This document shows positions 6,502-29,869 of a stretch of 34,973 nucleotides of DNA, piece after piece; within the stretch, counting starts at the first letter, position 1; every line of letters begins with the position of its first letter. The notes under the pieces were generated by a model. That model was given only the letters and a program-made list of their open reading frames with translations, did no database searches and was not told the DNA's origin. A program made the translations under genes and the position numbers. The stretch is from Planctomycetota bacterium (GTDB taxonomy: Bacteria > Planctomycetota > Phycisphaerae > Sedimentisphaerales > Anaerohalosphaeraceae), in contig JAGGWF010000041.1 in the NCBI GenBank assembly GCA_021157685.1, positions 1 to 34,973 on the forward strand, read 5' to 3'.

Positions 6502-8154
6502 ATGTTTTGCTATCAATGTGAACAAACGATCGGGGGCAAAGGATGCTCAAAGAATGTCGGCGTGTGTGGTAAGACGGCCGAAACCGCGGACCTGCAGGAC
6601 CTTCTGATCTATGCGTCGCAGGGTATTTCCATGTATGCGCATCGGGCGGGACAACTCGGTCTGACGGACCGGGCGGCCGATCAGTTTGTCGTCGAGGCGT
6701 TGTTTACCACGGTGACCAATGTGAACTTCGATCCAGTTCGTCTGGAGGCGCTGATTGCCAAGGCAGGTCAGGTTCTCGATCAGGCCAAGGCGATGTACAG
6801 TGAGGCCTGCCAAAAGAACGGTACGGAACCGGAGCATCTGGTCGGTCCGGCTCAGTGGCAGGTTCCCGGCAGCCGGGATGAAATGCTGACTCAGGCCGCT
6901 TCGCACAGTATCGCTAACCGGCTCCAAGCGTATGGTGCGGATATTGCGGGACTGCAGGAATTGATTGTGTACGGTCTGAAGGGGACGGCGGCCTATGTGG
7001 ATCACGCAAAGATTTTGGGTATCGAAGATGACGGCGTGTATGCGTTCTTCCATGAGGCGATGGACTTTTTGACCGGGCCGCTGGCTACCGATGTCGATGC
7101 ACTGGTCGCGATGTCGCTGAAGGTTGGCGAAGTCAACTTGAAAGCCATGGGCTTGCTTGATGAGGCCAACACTGGCGTCTACGGCCATCCTGAGCCGACC
7201 GTGGTGCGTGTTACGCCGGTTAAGGGAAAAGCGATTCTCGTGTCCGGCCATGACCTAAAAGACCTGGATTTACTTTTGAAGCAGACCGAAGGCAAGGGTA
7301 TCAATATCTATACGCATGGCGAGATGCTGCCGTGTCTGGCCTACCCGGAATTGAAAAAGTATAAACATCTTGTGGGTAACTATGGCGGCGCCTGGCAGGA
7401 TCAGAAAAAAGAGTTCGACGCGTTTCCCGGTTCGATCCTGATGACGACCAACTGCATTCAGAAGCCGCAGGAGACCTATAAGGGCCGCATCTTTACGACC
7501 GGGCTGGTCGCGTGGCCGGGCGTGGTGCATATCGGTCCCGATAAGGACTTTACTTCGGTGATTGACGCGGCTCTGGCGGCGGATGGATTTACCGAAGATG
7601 CCGAAGAGAAGACGATTACTATTGGCTTTGGACATAATGCGGTAATGAATGTGGCGCCTGCGGTAATCGATGCGGTTAAGGCAGGCCAGATCAAACACTT
7701 CTTTCTGATCGGTGGTTGTGACGGTGCCAAGCCGGGCCGTAACTACTTTACCGATCTGGCCCAGCAGGTTCCGGATGATTGTGTCATTCTGACGCTGGCG
7801 TGCGGTAAGTATCGCTTTAACAAATTGCCGTTTGGTGATATCGGTGGGATTCCGCGGTTACTGGACATCGGCCAGTGTAATGATGCGTATTCGGCGATCC
7901 AGATTGCGGTTGCTCTGGCCGATGCGTTCGAGTGCGGTGTCAACGACCTGCCGCTGTCGATGGTGCTGAGCTGGTACGAGCAAAAGGCCGTTTGTATTCT
8001 GCTGACGCTGCTGCATCTGGGGATCCAGAATATCAAGCTGGGGCCGACACTGCCGGCGTTCATCGGGCCGAATGTGCTGAATGTTCTGGTCGAAAAGTTC
8101 AATATCGCTCTGATTACCACGCCCGAAAAGGACCTGGCGGAGATGCTCGCTTAA
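6502..8154 (+). CDS. hcp: Hydroxylamine reductase / hybrid cluster protein
   Basis: MFCYQCEQTIGGKGC N-terminal Cys motif and full-length Hcp-like sequence; SD ggaaagg upstream of ATG 6502 (ORF track start 6436 is too early). Confidence 0.92.
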   Translation: MFCYQCEQTIGGKGCSKNVGVCGKTAETADLQDLLIYASQGISMYAHRAGQLGLTDRAADQFVVEALFTTVTNVNFDPVRLEALIAKAGQVLDQAKAMYSEACQKNGTEPEHLVGPAQWQVPGSRDEMLTQAASHSIANRLQAYGADIAGLQELIVYGLKGTAAYVDHAKILGIEDDGVYAFFHEAMDFLTGPLATDVDALVAMSLKVGEVNLKAMGLLDEANTGVYGHPEPTVVRVTPVKGKAILVSGHDLKDLDLLLKQTEGKGINIYTHGEMLPCLAYPELKKYKHLVGNYGGAWQDQKKEFDAFPGSILMTTNCIQKPQETYKGRIFTTGLVAWPGVVHIGPDKDFTSVIDAALAADGFTEDAEEKTITIGFGHNAVMNVAPAVIDAVKAGQIKHFFLIGGCDGAKPGRNYFTDLAQQVPDDCVILTLACGKYRFNKLPFGDIGGIPRLLDIGQCNDAYSAIQIAVALADAFECGVNDLPLSMVLSWYEQKAVCILLTLLHLGIQNIKLGPTLPAFIGPNVLNVLVEKFNIALITTPEKDLAEMLA

Positions 8155-9680: not shown

Positions 9681-9739
9681 GGGTGTTGTAAATGGGAAAG
9701 TTGGCGGATGCATAAACGGCCTGAAAGGCCGGTATAACT
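9681..9739. repeat. Direct repeat copy A (partner 10173..10233)
   Basis: gggtgttgtaaatgggaaagttg...cggcctgaaaggccggtataact. Confidence 0.65.
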
Positions 9740-9892
9740 TAGCCCAGGGCAACGCCTTGGGTATAGGAGCATTCAATTCCAATTCACCCTGAAGGGGCAG
9801 AATATATTGCCCTTACAGGGCGAAACATTATATGGGATTCTGTTACCCAGCCCGTTTGGCTGGGCTAAGATATGTTAGCCCTTCGGGCTACT
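9715..9892. repeat. Cluster of about six micro-hairpins
   Basis: ggcctgaaaggcc, cccagggcaacgccttggg, ccctgaagggg, gcccttacagggc, gcccgtttggctgggc, tagcccttcgggcta in ~180 bp. Confidence 0.6.
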
Positions 9893-12097: not shown

Positions 12098-12384
12098 TTT
12101 ATAATAATCCTGACCAAATTATAGTAACCCTGACTGAAAACTGGTGGTTTTCCTATGAAACCAACCAAACTATCACGAAAATGGGACAAAATCAATGAAT
12201 TGCAATCATTTTTAATGAAAACGGTTTTTATCGGTCGAAAATGGTTTAGAGAGTGTATCGTGTGAGTCGGGTTGCGAAATGGCTTGCAATTATACAATTG
12301 CCGGCTATACTATTCCTCCAACTTTTGAGGAAGTGATTTACCGTATAGAGAAAAAGGATTTTAATACAATCTCGGGAAAAAGCT

Positions 12385-23006: not shown

Positions 23007-24203
23007 TTACAGGATTTCCATCGCGACGGCGGTTACATCATCGATTTCGCCGGGCTTGAAGTGATACTCTTTAGCTGTGTTGCTAAGGGCTTCGATCATC
23101 GGCTCTACGGGAAGGCGGCACATCTCAGAAAACGGCTCATTGAAACAGAATTGCCCGTCATCATCGCTGGCCCCGATGAGGGGTTCGGCGCCGTCCGAAA
23201 AGACGAAGAGTTTGTCGCCGGGCTGAAGTTGGATGGACTTCTGCTCGAAGTCGGCCTCGGGGAAAACGCCGAGCAGTCCGCCGCGGCTTTGAAGCTGAAC
23301 AAGCTGATTATCGCGAATCAGTACCGGGTAGGGGTGTCCCGCACGGGAATAATCCAGTTGAAGCGTCTTAATATTCAACAATCCGTAGAAGCAAGTCGCA
23401 AACAAACATCCAGCTAATTCTTGCTCCGACATTCGAAGGTTCAGCGTGGTAATCACTTCCCACGGCTTGAAAATCGTGTACTTATCATTGATTGTCTGCC
23501 GCATGATGGCGGCTTGTTTCAGGAACATTGTCAATAGAGCTGCCGGCATAGAGTGTCCTACGGCATCGGCAAGATAAAAACCGATATACTTCTCGTCCAG
23601 CCGGGCGATGTCGTAAATATCCCCGGATACCCACTCGGCGGGGCGGAACATCGTGGCCCAGCGAATATTTCCGGCATGGGGCAACCGCGTTGGGAGAAAG
23701 TTCCGCTGGACATGTCCGGCCATTTCAAGTTGCTTGGCGGTATCTTCGTTTACTGAGAGTTGACAGGTGTGAGCGTCCTTTTCGGACAGATCCCGCTGCA
23801 ATCGTTTATAGAATTTCACATTGCTTTCGATCCGTGCCCAAAGTGGGGCATAGTCCACAGTGTCAATCTTTGAAGCAAGCGGCAGATCGTCAAGCTGGAA
23901 AAAATCGGGGCAGTTATGGATAATAATCGAGATGTCCTTCTGATCCAGTTGTTTGAATAGCTCCTGAAATACCGCGGCGTTATTGGTATCGATCGATCCG
24001 GCGTCAAAAATAACCGTTCCCAGGATGCTGCGGCTGTGAATACAGGAGTTAAAGTTGCTGCTTGCAACTTGGTCCCATAAATACCCATTTTCATTGAGCC
24101 GTTTGGTCAATTCGTCAGAAATAGGCCGATCCCCGACAAACAGCACATGGACCGGTGCCGTTTGATTTTGTGAACAGGTTGTCATGTCAGTTTTCGTGAT
24201 CAT
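23007..24203 (-). CDS. SpoIIE/RsbU-type PP2C serine phosphatase with N-terminal receiver-like domain
   Basis: GHVQRNFLPTRLPHAGNIRWATMFRPAEWVSGDIYDI...GFYLADAVGHSMPAALLTMF. Confidence 0.82.
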   Translation of the reverse strand: MITKTDMTTCSQNQTAPVHVLFVGDRPISDELTKRLNENGYLWDQVASSNFNSCIHSRSILGTVIFDAGSIDTNNAAVFQELFKQLDQKDISIIIHNCPDFFQLDDLPLASKIDTVDYAPLWARIESNVKFYKRLQRDLSEKDAHTCQLSVNEDTAKQLEMAGHVQRNFLPTRLPHAGNIRWATMFRPAEWVSGDIYDIARLDEKYIGFYLADAVGHSMPAALLTMFLKQAAIMRQTINDKYTIFKPWEVITTLNLRMSEQELAGCLFATCFYGLLNIKTLQLDYSRAGHPYPVLIRDNQLVQLQSRGGLLGVFPEADFEQKSIQLQPGDKLFVFSDGAEPLIGASDDDGQFCFNEPFSEMCRLPVEPMIEALSNTAKEYHFKPGEIDDVTAVAMEIL

Positions 24204-24536: not shown

Positions 24537-24597
24537 TGGCAGAGAAAATGAGAGCCGCGCACTGACCCATCAGCATGGGCGGTGCGTGGTTTTTTTG
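24537..24597 (+). promoter_or_regulatory. Leader terminator/antiterminator upstream of glpT, probable GlpP target
   Basis: tggcagagaaaatgagagCCGCGCACtgacccatcagcatgggcgGTGCGTGGttttttt; shares tggc.gaga..atgagagccg with the leader at 26692. Confidence 0.65.
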
Positions 24598-24642
24598 TTG
24601 GCTTTTGGGTCTTGAAATTTTATCGTAACCATGGAGCAAAAG

Positions 24643-25995
24643 ATGAATTTTTTGAAATTTCACAATTATTTTTCCCCGGCGACTCACATCGAGCGTCTGC
24701 CGGATGAACAGATCAAAAAGCGATATTCCCGGTGCCGCTGGGGTGTTCTTGAGTCAACTTTTACAGGGTACGCCACATTTTACCTTGTCAGAAACAACCT
24801 TTCGATCGTTTCAATGGATATGGAGCAGGCACTACATTATAGTCACTCAATGATCGGTAATATCCTCGCCATTACTGCCATATCCTATGGACTTGGTAAG
24901 TTTCTGATGGGGTCTGTTTCAGATAGGAGTAATCCCCGTAAATTTATGGCTTTTGGATTGCTTATTACAGCGATCTTAAATTTACTTTTCGGCAGTGCCA
25001 GTCATTATGGAATCCATTTGCTACTCTGGGGGCTAAACGGGTTTGTTCAGGGAATGGGTTGGGGCCCGTGCGGTAGGTCGATTGGTCACTGGTTCAGTGT
25101 GCGTGAAAGAGGCACGGTTTTTAGTTTGTGGAATGTATCTCACAATGTCGGCGGCGGTATTGCGGGGGTCCTGTCGGCTCAGGCCGCGGTGGCTTTTGGC
25201 TGGCGAAATGCGTTCTACTTTCCTGCCGCAATCGCGATTATCGGAGCGATTTATCTTTTCTTCAGATTGAAAGATACCCCTCAATCGGTGGGCCTGCCGC
25301 CTATTGAAGAGTATAAGGATGACTTCACTGAGGATGAAAAGCTGCACGGGACACATGAGCAGGAACTGACCGCAAAACAGTTGTTTTTAGACTACACCTT
25401 AAAGAATAAATACATTTGGTTGTTAGCGATTGCCAATCTTTTTGCTTATATTGTTCGTTACAGTATGTACGATTGGGGGCCGTTGTATCTTCGTGAGGTT
25501 AAAGGGGCCTCTTTGTCCGATGGCGGCATTGCTGTGTTGCTGCTGAATTTTGGCGGGATTCCTTCGACCATTCTTCTCGGCTGGCTCTCTGACAAACTTG
25601 GCGGCAGGCGGGGCATGGTGGCTGTTTTATGCATGTTCCCTATCGCATTTGCATTTATGGGGATCATCGTTAACCCGGCCGGCCATCTCTGGGTTGATAT
25701 GACAATGTTGATGATCATTGGTTTTTTGGTTTATCCGGTAATCAATCTGATTACGATTATGGCACTGGATTTAACCTCTAAAAAGGCGATTGGTACCGCC
25801 GCCGGTTTCATTGGGTTGTTTGGTTATTTGGGCCGAGTGATTCAGGCCTCCGGATTTGGTTGGATGGCGGATCATTTTGGTGAGCTTTATGACCCTCAAA
25901 CGGCGTGGAATATTATTCTGTGGACCATTGTTGGTTGTGCGGCTATTTCTGTTTTTCTTCTTGGCTTTACATGGAAATTAAAGCCAAAAGCTTAA
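24643..25995 (+). CDS. glpT: MFS organophosphate:phosphate antiporter, glycerol-3-phosphate transporter type
   Basis: GlpT-like RYSRCRWGVLESTFTGYATFYLVRNNLS, YGLGKFLMGSVSDRSNPRKFMAFGL; SD ggag before ATG 24643. Confidence 0.82.
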   Translation: MNFLKFHNYFSPATHIERLPDEQIKKRYSRCRWGVLESTFTGYATFYLVRNNLSIVSMDMEQALHYSHSMIGNILAITAISYGLGKFLMGSVSDRSNPRKFMAFGLLITAILNLLFGSASHYGIHLLLWGLNGFVQGMGWGPCGRSIGHWFSVRERGTVFSLWNVSHNVGGGIAGVLSAQAAVAFGWRNAFYFPAAIAIIGAIYLFFRLKDTPQSVGLPPIEEYKDDFTEDEKLHGTHEQELTAKQLFLDYTLKNKYIWLLAIANLFAYIVRYSMYDWGPLYLREVKGASLSDGGIAVLLLNFGGIPSTILLGWLSDKLGGRRGMVAVLCMFPIAFAFMGIIVNPAGHLWVDMTMLMIIGFLVYPVINLITIMALDLTSKKAIGTAAGFIGLFGYLGRVIQASGFGWMADHFGELYDPQTAWNIILWTIVGCAAISVFLLGFTWKLKPKA

Positions 25996-26032
25996 AAGAA
26001 GGCATTCTGCCGGAGAGGATGACCTAATCGAA

Positions 26033-26584
26033 ATGGTAAAATACGACAATACGATTATTGCGGCCATTGGCACGCTGGATAAATTAGATGCGGCGATCGA
26101 GTCGAAGTGTAAAACGATTTTTTTGCTGACGGGAAATATTTTTAATCTGCAAAGCTCTATCGATAAGATTCATCAAGCGAACAAGAAGGTCTATGTGGAT
26201 ATTGACCTTATGGAGGGCTTCGGAAAAGACCCCGTTTTTCTGGAGTATCTTAATGAGGTTCTTAAGCCGGATGGGATTATTACGACTCGAAGCAACCTTA
26301 TTAAGAAGGCCAAGGGCCTGGGGTTGTTTGCGGTTCAAAGAATCTTTGTATTTGACTCGAGGTCTCTTAATTCCGGGATCGATCTGGTTTTGAAGACAAG
26401 GCCCGACGCGCTCGAGATTTTGCCGGGTATTATGCCCAAGGTTATCAGGGAAGCTCGGGATAGGGCAAAATTGCCTGTTATCTGTGGTGGGTTGATATCG
26501 GACAGGGAAGACATTGACAGTGCGATCAATGCGGGTGCGATTGCCATAACGACCAGTCGCGAATCGCTTTGGGATTTGTGTTAA
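26033..26584 (+). CDS. glpP: Glycerol-3-phosphate responsive antiterminator
   Basis: FLLTGNIFNLQSSIDKIHQANKKVYVDIDLMEGFGKD...DALEILPGIMPKVI...GGLISDREDI...AITTS. Confidence 0.85.
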   Translation: MVKYDNTIIAAIGTLDKLDAAIESKCKTIFLLTGNIFNLQSSIDKIHQANKKVYVDIDLMEGFGKDPVFLEYLNEVLKPDGIITTRSNLIKKAKGLGLFAVQRIFVFDSRSLNSGIDLVLKTRPDALEILPGIMPKVIREARDRAKLPVICGGLISDREDIDSAINAGAIAITTSRESLWDLC

Positions 26585-26691
26585 TATTAAATGATTGAAG
26601 CAGGAGTCAGGATGTAACCGTAGTGGGAGCATAATAAATAATATGGACAGTTTGTCATCAGCTTTTTGCGAGTTTGTGACAAACAACACTT

Positions 26692-26764
26692 TGGCTGAGA
26701 CCATGAGAGCCGTACAGTGTTACCCGTACAAGGATTGTTACGGGGGACAGTGTGCGGTTTTTTG
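26692..26764 (+). promoter_or_regulatory. Leader terminator/antiterminator upstream of the glpA-like operon, probable GlpP target
   Basis: tggctgagaccatgagagCCGTACAgtgttacccgtacaaggattgttacgggggacagTGTGCGGtttttt; inner stem cccgta/tacggg. Confidence 0.65.
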
Positions 26765-26780
26765 TTGATAGGTGGAATTT

Positions 26781-28208
26781 ATGTATGACATAACGATTAT
26801 TGGTGGCGGCGTCACAGGTTGTTTTATTGCACGGCAGCTTTGCCGGTACGATTTAGAGGTCGTGCTGATCGAGAAGAATTATGATGTTGCCAATGAGACC
26901 ACTAAAGCCAACAGCGGGATTATTCATTCCGGCTATGATGCGCGTCCGGGGACGCTGAAAGCAAAATTAAACACCCTTGGCAATCCGATGTTTGACGAAA
27001 TCTGCAGCGAATTGGGGGTGCCTTTAAAGAGGATTGGCTCATTAACAATTGCTAAGACCAACAAAGAGATGGGAACTTTAAAAAAACTCTATGAGCGTGG
27101 GTGCACCAATGGTATTCCGCAGCTATCATTGATTGATGCCGATGTGGTTAGACGGATCGAGCCGAATATTCATCATCAAGTCAAGGGTGCATTGCTTGCC
27201 GAAACGGCTGGTATTGTCGACCCGTTTTGCCTTACGATTGCCTTGGCGGAGAATGCATCAGATAATGGCACAGAGGTTAAGTTGGAAACCCGGATTGTTG
27301 GAATCGATCGTGAGAAGGATGGCTATCTGTTGACCACCGATGGTGGATCTATCAGATCCCGATATGTCATTAGTTGTGCCGGGGTCTATGCGGAGGAGAT
27401 AAACGACCTTCTGACGCCGTCACATTTTAAGATCGCTCCCAGAAAAGGTGACTATGTCGTTTTTGACAAAAAAACAGGCGGTCTGGTAAACCATGTTATC
27501 TTTCAATGTCCTTCGGAGAAAGGCAAGGGGGTTTTGGTGACGCCGACCGTTCACGGCAATCTCCTTGTCGGACCTGACTCGGAGGTGGTCAAATGCAAAG
27601 ATGATGTGTCCACGACGCGCTCCGGACTTGATGAAATCTTGGCAACTTCAGCCAAGAGCGTTGAGGGAATTCCGGTGGGCATGGCGATAACAAATTTCTC
27701 CGGCTTACGGGCGACTCCGGATACAGGTGATTTTATTATCGAAGAACTGAAAGGCCATAAAGGTTTTATCAATGTTGCGGGTATCGAATCCCCCGGCCTG
27801 ACCGCTTCCCCTGCGATTGCGGACTATGTGATAGAGATTTTGAAATCTTCGGGGTTGGATCTGAAAACAAAGGCAGACTTTAATCCTATCCGAGAACCGA
27901 TCGCGGAATTTATAGAGCTTAGTGATGAGGAAAAGAGCACCCTGATCAAGGCCAATCCTCTCTATGGGAGAGTTATTTGCCGGTGTGAAAATATTACGGA
28001 AGGTGAGATCGTTGATTCGATCCGTCGTAATGTGGGGGCTCGCTCTGTCGATGGCGTCAAGCGAAGGGTTCGTGCGGGAATGGGACGCTGTCAGGGAGGA
28101 TTCTGTGCCCCGAGAATCATTGAAATACTGGCAAGAGAATTGCAAAAGAATGCTTGTCAAATATTAAAAGACGAGAAAGATTCGTATATTTTATCGGGGG
28201 GAATTTAA
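26781..28208 (+). CDS. glpA: Glycerol-3-phosphate dehydrogenase-like FAD oxidoreductase with BFD-type [2Fe-2S] domain
   Basis: MYDITIIGGGVTGCFIARQL FAD motif; C-terminal CRCENITEGEIV...GMGRCQGGFC; SD aggtgg, ATG 26781 preferred. Confidence 0.82.
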   Translation: MYDITIIGGGVTGCFIARQLCRYDLEVVLIEKNYDVANETTKANSGIIHSGYDARPGTLKAKLNTLGNPMFDEICSELGVPLKRIGSLTIAKTNKEMGTLKKLYERGCTNGIPQLSLIDADVVRRIEPNIHHQVKGALLAETAGIVDPFCLTIALAENASDNGTEVKLETRIVGIDREKDGYLLTTDGGSIRSRYVISCAGVYAEEINDLLTPSHFKIAPRKGDYVVFDKKTGGLVNHVIFQCPSEKGKGVLVTPTVHGNLLVGPDSEVVKCKDDVSTTRSGLDEILATSAKSVEGIPVGMAITNFSGLRATPDTGDFIIEELKGHKGFINVAGIESPGLTASPAIADYVIEILKSSGLDLKTKADFNPIREPIAEFIELSDEEKSTLIKANPLYGRVICRCENITEGEIVDSIRRNVGARSVDGVKRRVRAGMGRCQGGFCAPRIIEILARELQKNACQILKDEKDSYILSGGI

Positions 28209-28215
28209 AGAGATA

Positions 28216-29490
28216 TTGATGACGACATATAAAAAAGCATGTTATGACTTAGTTGTGATCGGTGGCGGCCCCGCCGGGCTTGCCGCGGCAATCGAGGCAA
28301 AGAAAAACGGTATCCACCATATTCTTCTTCTCGAAAGAGACAGAGAGCTGGGGGGGATTCTTCAGCAATGTATTCATAATGGTTTTGGGATTCATGTTTT
28401 CAAGAAGGAATTAACAGGGCCGGAATATGCTGAAAATTTCATTGATGAATTACGAGACTTAGGCATTGAGTACAAGCTGGACACTATGGTGCTTGGTGTT
28501 CATGAAAATAAGACGGTCGAAGCTGTCAATCCTCAAGAGGGCCTTCTTTCGATACAAGCGAAAGCCGTTGTTTTGGCTATGGGGTGCAGGGAACGCACGC
28601 GTGGCGCGTTGAATATTCCCGGCAGCAGGCCCGCCGGGATTTTTACGGCCGGCACGGCTCAACGATTGGTGAATATCGAGGGGTATATGGTTGGCAAAAA
28701 AGCGGTGATTTTGGGCTCCGGCGATATCGGCCTGATTATGGCTCGCCGGATGACTCTTGAAGGGGCCAAAGTTGAGGCCGTTGTAGAGATGATGCCCTAT
28801 CCCGGTGGTCTGAATCGAAATATTGTGCAATGCTTAGATGATTTTGATATCCCGCTTTTGCTGAGTCACACGGTGGTCAATGTCTATGGTCGCAATCGTC
28901 TGGAAGGGGTTGATATCATGAAAGTGGATAAAGATCGGCAGGTCATTCCGGGGACTCAAAGACGAATTGAATGCGATACCATGTTGTTGTCAGTGGGGTT
29001 AATACCCGAAAATGAACTGTCGGTTGATTGCGGCATAAAACTCGACGCTGTTACGCAGGGGCCCATTGTTGATAACAGCATGGAAACCAGCGCCGAAGGG
29101 GTTTTTGCCTGCGGCAATGTTGTGCATGTTCATGACCTGGTCGATTTTGTGACGGAAGAGAGCCGAAGGGCCGGCCGGAGTGCTGTCGATTATATCCAGA
29201 GAAAGACGACCGCAACCGGCGTCAAGATCAAAGTGGTTCCGGGCGAGACCGTTCGATATGTTGTTCCTCAGCTTGTGAACCTTGATGGACCGGATATGGA
29301 TTTTGAGTTCTTTCTCAGAAGCCGGGATGTCCACGACCGGGCCTCATTGGTTATCAGTCTGGACGGTCAAAAAATTAAAACGATCAGGAAGCGATATCTG
29401 GTCCCCGGAGAAATGCAGCATATTAAGTTGAAAAGAAAGGCGTTGCCTGTTTGTTCCGGCGGGTCAACGCTTTCGATATCTATTGTGTAA
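28216..29490 (+). CDS. NAD(P)/FAD-dependent oxidoreductase, glp operon partner
   Basis: DLVVIGGGPAGLAAAIEAKKNG, MGCRERTRGALNIPGSRPAG, VILGSGDIGLIMARRMTLEGA. Confidence 0.85.
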   Translation: MMTTYKKACYDLVVIGGGPAGLAAAIEAKKNGIHHILLLERDRELGGILQQCIHNGFGIHVFKKELTGPEYAENFIDELRDLGIEYKLDTMVLGVHENKTVEAVNPQEGLLSIQAKAVVLAMGCRERTRGALNIPGSRPAGIFTAGTAQRLVNIEGYMVGKKAVILGSGDIGLIMARRMTLEGAKVEAVVEMMPYPGGLNRNIVQCLDDFDIPLLLSHTVVNVYGRNRLEGVDIMKVDKDRQVIPGTQRRIECDTMLLSVGLIPENELSVDCGIKLDAVTQGPIVDNSMETSAEGVFACGNVVHVHDLVDFVTEESRRAGRSAVDYIQRKTTATGVKIKVVPGETVRYVVPQLVNLDGPDMDFEFFLRSRDVHDRASLVISLDGQKIKTIRKRYLVPGEMQHIKLKRKALPVCSGGSTLSISIV

Positions 29491-29869
29491 GGGTATAATT
29501 GTGAGTGTGAACGAAATGATATGTGTCGTATGTCCTGTCGGTTGTCATTTGAGGGTTTCTGCCGATGGCGATGTTTATATGGTGGAAGGCAACCAGTGCG
29601 GAAGGGGCAAGGTTTATGCCATCAATGAATTGACCAATCCGCTTCGAACGGTAACTTCCACGGTTAAAATAAATGGCTCGCCCATGACACGGCTACCGGT
29701 AAAAACAAAGCAGGCCTTTCCGAAGGGGAGAATGCTGGAGTTGATGAGTGTGTTAGGTAAAGTCGAACTCAAACCGCCGGTGAAGCGTGGGCAGGCTGTT
29801 TTGAAAAATGTACTTGATACCGGCATCGATGTTGTCGCCACGAAAACCTGTCTGGATAACCGGGTCTAA
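29483..29869 (+). CDS. DUF1667 domain protein (Cys-rich glp operon partner)
   Basis: MICVVCPVGCHLRV...EGNQCGRGKVYAINELTNPLRTVTSTV...RLPVKTKQAFPKG. Confidence 0.82.
   Translation: MCKGIIVSVNEMICVVCPVGCHLRVSADGDVYMVEGNQCGRGKVYAINELTNPLRTVTSTVKINGSPMTRLPVKTKQAFPKGRMLELMSVLGKVELKPPVKRGQAVLKNVLDTGIDVVATKTCLDNRV

Follow-up and report, generated by a model that had tools for sequence, protein, structure and literature searches.

The window, that is, the whole stretch of 34,973 nucleotides analysed here, carries on its forward strand a compact cassette of glycerol-3-phosphate genes, in which the gene for the antiterminator protein GlpP lies between two RNA leaders that share a motif. The features of the locus are:

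23007-24203, reverse strand: the gene 5′ of leader 1, on the opposite strand
24537-24597, forward strand: leader 1, whole, preceding glpT-glpP
24537..24557, forward strand: proposed antiterminator hairpin of leader 1, with arms 24537-24540 (UGGC) and 24554-24557 (GCCG)
Loop of leader 1, forward strand: A-GAGA(24542-24545)-AAAU-GAGA(24550-24553)
24550..24596, forward strand: intrinsic terminator of leader 1, with a T-run at 24590-24596; the 5′ arm shares bases with the 3′ arm of the antiterminator
24631..25995, forward strand: glpT-like glycerol-3-phosphate antiporter (MFS/OPA); MFS_1, with TIGR00712 as best NCBIfam model
26033..26584, forward strand: glpP, glycerol-3-phosphate responsive antiterminator protein (PF04309, 3KTS, conserved residues)
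26692-26764, forward strand: leader 2, whole, preceding glpA-FAD-DUF1667
26692..26712, forward strand: proposed antiterminator hairpin of leader 2, with arms 26692-26696 (UGGCU) and 26708-26712 (AGCCG)
26697-26700 and 26705-26708, forward strand: GAGA pair of leader 2
26705..26763, forward strand: intrinsic terminator of leader 2, with a T-run at 26758-26763
26784..28208, forward strand: glpA-like FAD oxidoreductase (DAO) with a C-terminal BFD-like [2Fe-2S] domain
28219..29490, forward strand: FAD/NAD-dependent oxidoreductase (Pyr_redox_2), second gene of the glpA operon
29501..29869, forward strand: DUF1667 protein (PF07892, 99 bits)

The sequence-only reading had named the gene at 26033-26584 GlpP, and this assignment holds: the product matches PF04309 over the full length of the model (1-173 of 173; 214.5 bits against a cut-off of 27, E 8.7e-64), and PF04309 is the sole domain detected in the 183-aa protein. 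Its structural relatives are 3KTS, a glycerol uptake operon antiterminator protein (E 6.8e-34), and 1VKF (E 1.2e-17). Fourteen columns are invariant across 11 members of the family, and identity to the GlpPs of named bacteria, mostly Bacillota, is 31-38%. By analogy with B. subtilis GlpP, the ligand would be glycerol-3-phosphate. A profile search of genome contigs with a 3-sequence GlpP alignment returned 15 loci, all from Bacillota, and no relatives of GlpP were found in the viral contigs searched.

The glpT-like product is an organophosphate:phosphate antiporter nearest to GlpT, with a TIGR00712 score of 436 bits that lies under the cut-off of 632. The start of the glpA-like gene was set at the ATG at 26784, within a longer ORF that begins at a GTG at 26772. 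The cassette contains neither glpF nor glpK, and no glycerol kinase above the curated cut-off was found in the host genome, which is 88.7% complete. Thus, the signal is likely to be imported glycerol-3-phosphate, with phospholipid headgroups as one possible source.

The proposal of two leaders with a common motif running into terminators was borne out. The window has exactly two copies of TGGCWGAGANNATGAGAGCCG, both on the forward strand (24537-24557 and 26692-26712), where 100 shuffles predict 0. When the whole host genome was searched for GAGANNATGAGAGCC with up to 2 mismatches allowed, these two were the only sites without a mismatch. The stems quoted in the sequence-only reading are present, and both terminator hairpins are strong (leader 1, -35.8 kcal/mol, z -3.1; leader 2, -40.5 kcal/mol, z -4.2). 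Each leader thus places an intrinsic terminator in the 5′ UTR ahead of glp genes, as GlpP-controlled leaders do. No Rfam family matches either window leader at gathering thresholds, and the leaders in L024, L026 and L049 gave no match at E up to 1. Elsewhere in the window, an Acido-Lenti-1 RNA (RF01687) lies at 9717-9761 on the reverse strand (40.1 bits).

A comparison of the leaders with one another revealed that the bases 5′ of the first GAGA are complementary to those 3′ of the second. The conserved unit therefore exceeds ATGAGAGCCG, which had been put forward as the antiterminator: it starts at TGGC, pairing with GCCG after the second GAGA. ATGAGAGCCG does belong to the conserved element, yet it is merely the 3′ half of a probable hairpin in which an N-GAGA-N4-GAGA loop is closed by the arms GGC(U)/(A)GCC. 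The terminator uses the 3′ arm of this hairpin as its own 5′ arm, and the two folds are therefore mutually exclusive. When the growing transcript was folded in silico, the small hairpin appeared first and was lost once the terminator 3′ arm emerged, for both window leaders.

The arms covary across leaders (GGC/GCC, GGU/ACC, GUGA/UCAC, GUUACC/GGUAAC): GGU/ACC is found in the second leader of a related genome, G035, GGUU/GACC before glpD and GUGA/UCAC before glpF of Bacillaceae, GUUACC/GGUAAC at the locus of an E. coli GlpP homologue, and GUUACU/AGUAAC in Enterococcus. Pairing was assessed in leaders picked by motif and terminator alone, with their 5′ arms permuted. At a fixed register, 65 of 95 positions paired, compared with 45.7 ± 4.1 after permutation (0 of 20,000 as high); because the leaders are related, such counts are not independent events, and permutation on 10 collapsed classes gave a weaker signal (p = 0.005). 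An independent pair-count covariation score was 0.400 versus 0.165 ± 0.039 (0 of 500). In 14 held-out leaders, retrieved afterwards with a model lacking this pairing, 54 of 70 positions paired against 40.8 expected (6 of 20,000 permutations), that is, 77% in the true register versus 21-48% in slid registers. Sliding the register by +2 left some of the covariation in the first set (0.338) but not in the held-out set, where 41% paired. In some leaders the stem is short, with 3-4 pairs (leader 1, -2.9 kcal/mol), and it reaches 7-9 pairs in L029 and L033; a few leaders (L033 of E. coli, L043 and L047 of Paenibacillus) can be fitted only by shifting the register. The leaders contain an alternative pairing that excludes the terminator and is kept by compensatory changes. 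Judged by Rfam and the open-access literature searched, this definition of the hairpin is the new part of the present analysis. It provides a covariation-supported description of the RNA probably recognised by GlpP, so that GlpP regulons become searchable in genomes by RNA search and the GlpP-RNA contact becomes directly testable.

We found a strict association between GlpP and the leader in the host's order. Only 3 of its 161 genomes encode GlpP, and the strict leader pattern followed by a terminator was detected at 5 sites in exactly the same three genomes (backward control, 0). The leader is thus present in 3/3 genomes with GlpP and in 0/158 without it. A looser scan added a second leader in G035 (L024:8173, arms GGU/ACC), so that in all three genomes glpT and glpA are each preceded by a leader. 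In G524 and G035 the two-leader layout is as in the window, around glpT-(GDPD)-glpP and glpA-FAD-DUF1667; the G035 operon includes a phosphodiesterase-like gene, named by eye from its sequence. DUF1667 occurs in five genomes of the order, two of which lack GlpP. One of these (G047, L126 1273-4332) serves as a natural control, having the full glpA-FAD-DUF1667 operon in the same order with neither GlpP nor leader; in the other, the contig stops near the start of glpA, so that this genome is uninformative. The absence of the motif in relatives with GlpP had been named as the outcome that would count against the proposal; instead, relatives with GlpP carry the motif before glp genes, and relatives without GlpP lack it. 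The circuit had been called unusual should the host lie outside Firmicutes; the host indeed seems not to belong to Bacillota, and among 392 sampled genomes of its phylum only the window's own encodes GlpP. The 16S genes of the host and of two relatives match none of the EUB338-I, -II and -III sites within 3 mismatches, and match the PLA46 site only at 3 mismatches; a Planctomycetota-like affiliation of the host is presumed. Beside the glp cassette of G524 (L050, 7651-11966), genes for a glycyl radical enzyme, its activating enzyme and a TRAP-type transporter were noted by inspection of ORFs.

The search was extended to loci around GlpP from plasmid records, species genomes and the three GlpP-encoding genomes of the order. 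In 727 kb of these loci, with both strands counted, GAGA-N3..5-GAGA followed by a terminator occurred 34 times, compared with 0-1 in Markov-shuffled controls. A covariance model built from 23 leaders (R1) matched the host genome twice only, at the two window leaders. Scanned over 200 Bacillota genomes, it gave 18 matches at E ≤ 1e-4, 2 in a training genome and 16 new (L091-L106). Fifteen of the 16 new matches adjoin glp genes, namely glpA (9), glpF (3) and glpD (3), the exception being L105. A covariance-model search had been suggested as a check of the proposal, and its outcome agrees with it: Bacillota encoding GlpP have the same leader element, as expected for a GlpP-binding RNA. Since the leader tracks GlpP in the order and the model matches in Bacillota lie beside glp genes, we conclude that the window leaders represent the usual GlpP element, here in a host seemingly outside Bacillota. 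We lean towards a broader reading, in which GlpPs from Bacillota to Enterobacteria (YgcP-type) and the host's phylum recognise one uncatalogued RNA family with freely covarying arms, an invariant GAGA-N4-GAGA loop and a 3′ strand shared with the terminator.

One Bacillota locus, L107 of G681, has the order glpP, leader, glpA, FAD, DUF1667, as in the window, with a nearly identical leader (UUAUGGCGGAGAAAUGGAGAGCCAUG) and 50% and 55% identity to the window's GlpP and GlpA, respectively. It shows no glpT match beside glpP, whereas the window's group adds glpT with a leader of its own. In the GlpP tree, which has several long branches, the G681 protein is sister to the clade of the window GlpP (support 93/85). 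The cassette was probably acquired, and a Bacillota source would fit, although a single candidate donor lineage was seen and the tree has long branches. A whole protein-RNA antitermination cassette, sensor and RNA targets together, would seemingly have moved to another phylum.

In B. subtilis, GlpP with glycerol-3-phosphate disrupts the 5′ UTR terminator of glp transcripts (PMC9604022); its binding to the antiterminator, with stabilisation of glpD mRNA, is described as well (PMC7430163). The window very probably holds a compact GlpP antitermination regulon of this kind, with leaders that fold in two ways, GlpP-glycerol-3-phosphate holding the hairpin, and the genes then being read. As a leader emerges from RNA polymerase, the small GGC(U)/(A)GCC hairpin around N-GAGA-N4-GAGA would be able to form first. 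With further transcription, the GAGAGCC strand would re-pair with the downstream CGG(U/C)UUUU arm into the terminator, halting RNA polymerase before glpT-glpP (leader 1) or glpA-FAD-DUF1667 (leader 2). Most likely, GlpP carrying glycerol-3-phosphate binds to the GAGA-N4-GAGA hairpin and keeps it folded; the terminator would then not form and the glp genes would be read. The analysis shows GlpP, the leaders, both alternative pairings (by sequence and covariation) and the tie of GlpP to the leaders; binding of GlpP to the leaders, its ligand and readthrough would follow the B. subtilis example. The genes for uptake and oxidation of glycerol-3-phosphate would, under this probable control, be on only when it is present.

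Because glpP and glpT both lie behind leader 1, import of glycerol-3-phosphate should raise both the importer and the sensor. This would amount to positive autoregulation via leader 1, with leader 2 then freeing the oxidising enzymes. From gene order alone we infer both the autoregulation and the two transcripts. The suggestion of a two-transcript feed-forward regulon fits the order of the genes; a promoter scan before both leaders gave nothing convincing and no sigma-70-like promoter, and the transcripts are therefore assumed.

How GlpP would engage the leader admits another reading: it might bind GAGA-N4-GAGA single-stranded and cover the 5′ arm of the terminator, the small hairpin being dispensable. 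The repeat is indeed invariant in all rows (which were chosen for it), its second GAGA abuts the terminator arm or extends into it, and the arms have just 3 pairs in some leaders. We nevertheless consider this unlikely, as covariation of the arms is seen in the first set and again in the held-out one, and the arms extend to 7-9 pairs in L029 and L033, neither of which is expected of unpaired RNA.

Binding of the hairpin by GlpP also has to be set against readings that dispense with the protein. A conserved, structured leader with two mutually exclusive folds before the genes of one pathway could be a riboswitch that senses glycerol-3-phosphate or another metabolite directly; yet the leader occurs exactly in the 3 of 161 genomes with GlpP and is missing before the GlpP-less glpA operon, its loop is rather small to serve as an aptamer, and Bacillus leaders are known targets of GlpP acting by this mechanism (PMC9604022). 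We rejected this reading, which has very little probability left, on the leader's tie to GlpP and the size of the loop. Just as improbable is that the leaders are plain terminators without regulation, leader 2 ending the glpT-glpP transcript and leader 1 something upstream. Both are strong intrinsic terminators, but they share, on their 5′ side, a 21-base motif that is conserved between phyla and linked to GlpP, and leader 1 has no close upstream forward-strand gene to end, since 23007-24203 is on the reverse strand; on these grounds it too was rejected.

The circuit is of a known kind, ordinary for Bacillota and here confirmed in an unusual host. B. subtilis GlpP, with its glpD, glpFK and glpT leaders, belongs to the same PF04309 family and serves the same pathway; its leaders carry terminators in the 5′ UTR that GlpP disrupts with glycerol-3-phosphate (PMC9604022), and the window leaders are likewise terminators. 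GAGA-N4-GAGA with a terminator is also found in Bacillaceae and Paenibacillaceae related to B. subtilis. Unlike in B. subtilis, the window glpP lies with glpT inside a leader-controlled operon, the cassette is without glpF and glpK, glpD is replaced by glpA-FAD-DUF1667, and the host looks to be outside Bacillota. The RAT elements of BglG/LicT/SacY resemble the window leaders in that a protein stabilises a small hairpin and the 3′ part of that hairpin starts the terminator, but loop sequence and stem differ and the regulator is GlpP instead of a CAT-PRD protein, so that the leaders are not members of that class. A BglG-type RAT was rejected because the 183-aa regulator has PF04309 only, with no CAT RNA-binding and PRD domains. 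HutP and TRAP are, like GlpP, metabolite-bound proteins acting on repeated purine motifs near a terminator, yet they are unrelated proteins with other repeat patterns (general knowledge and PMC7430163).

Several further leaders were seen at GlpP loci. Near a YgcP-type GlpP homologue of E. coli (L033, NZ_OL790696.1), two antiterminator-like leaders lie at 12135 on the reverse strand and 12294 on the forward strand, with arms GUUACC/GGUAAC and AUUACU/AGUAAU, and could mark a regulon. GAGA-N-GAGA leaders were also noted on the forward strand at 6677 and 11016 of L028 (Paenibacillus) and at 6639 of L031 (Peptoclostridium), where GlpP may control other genes of these regions.
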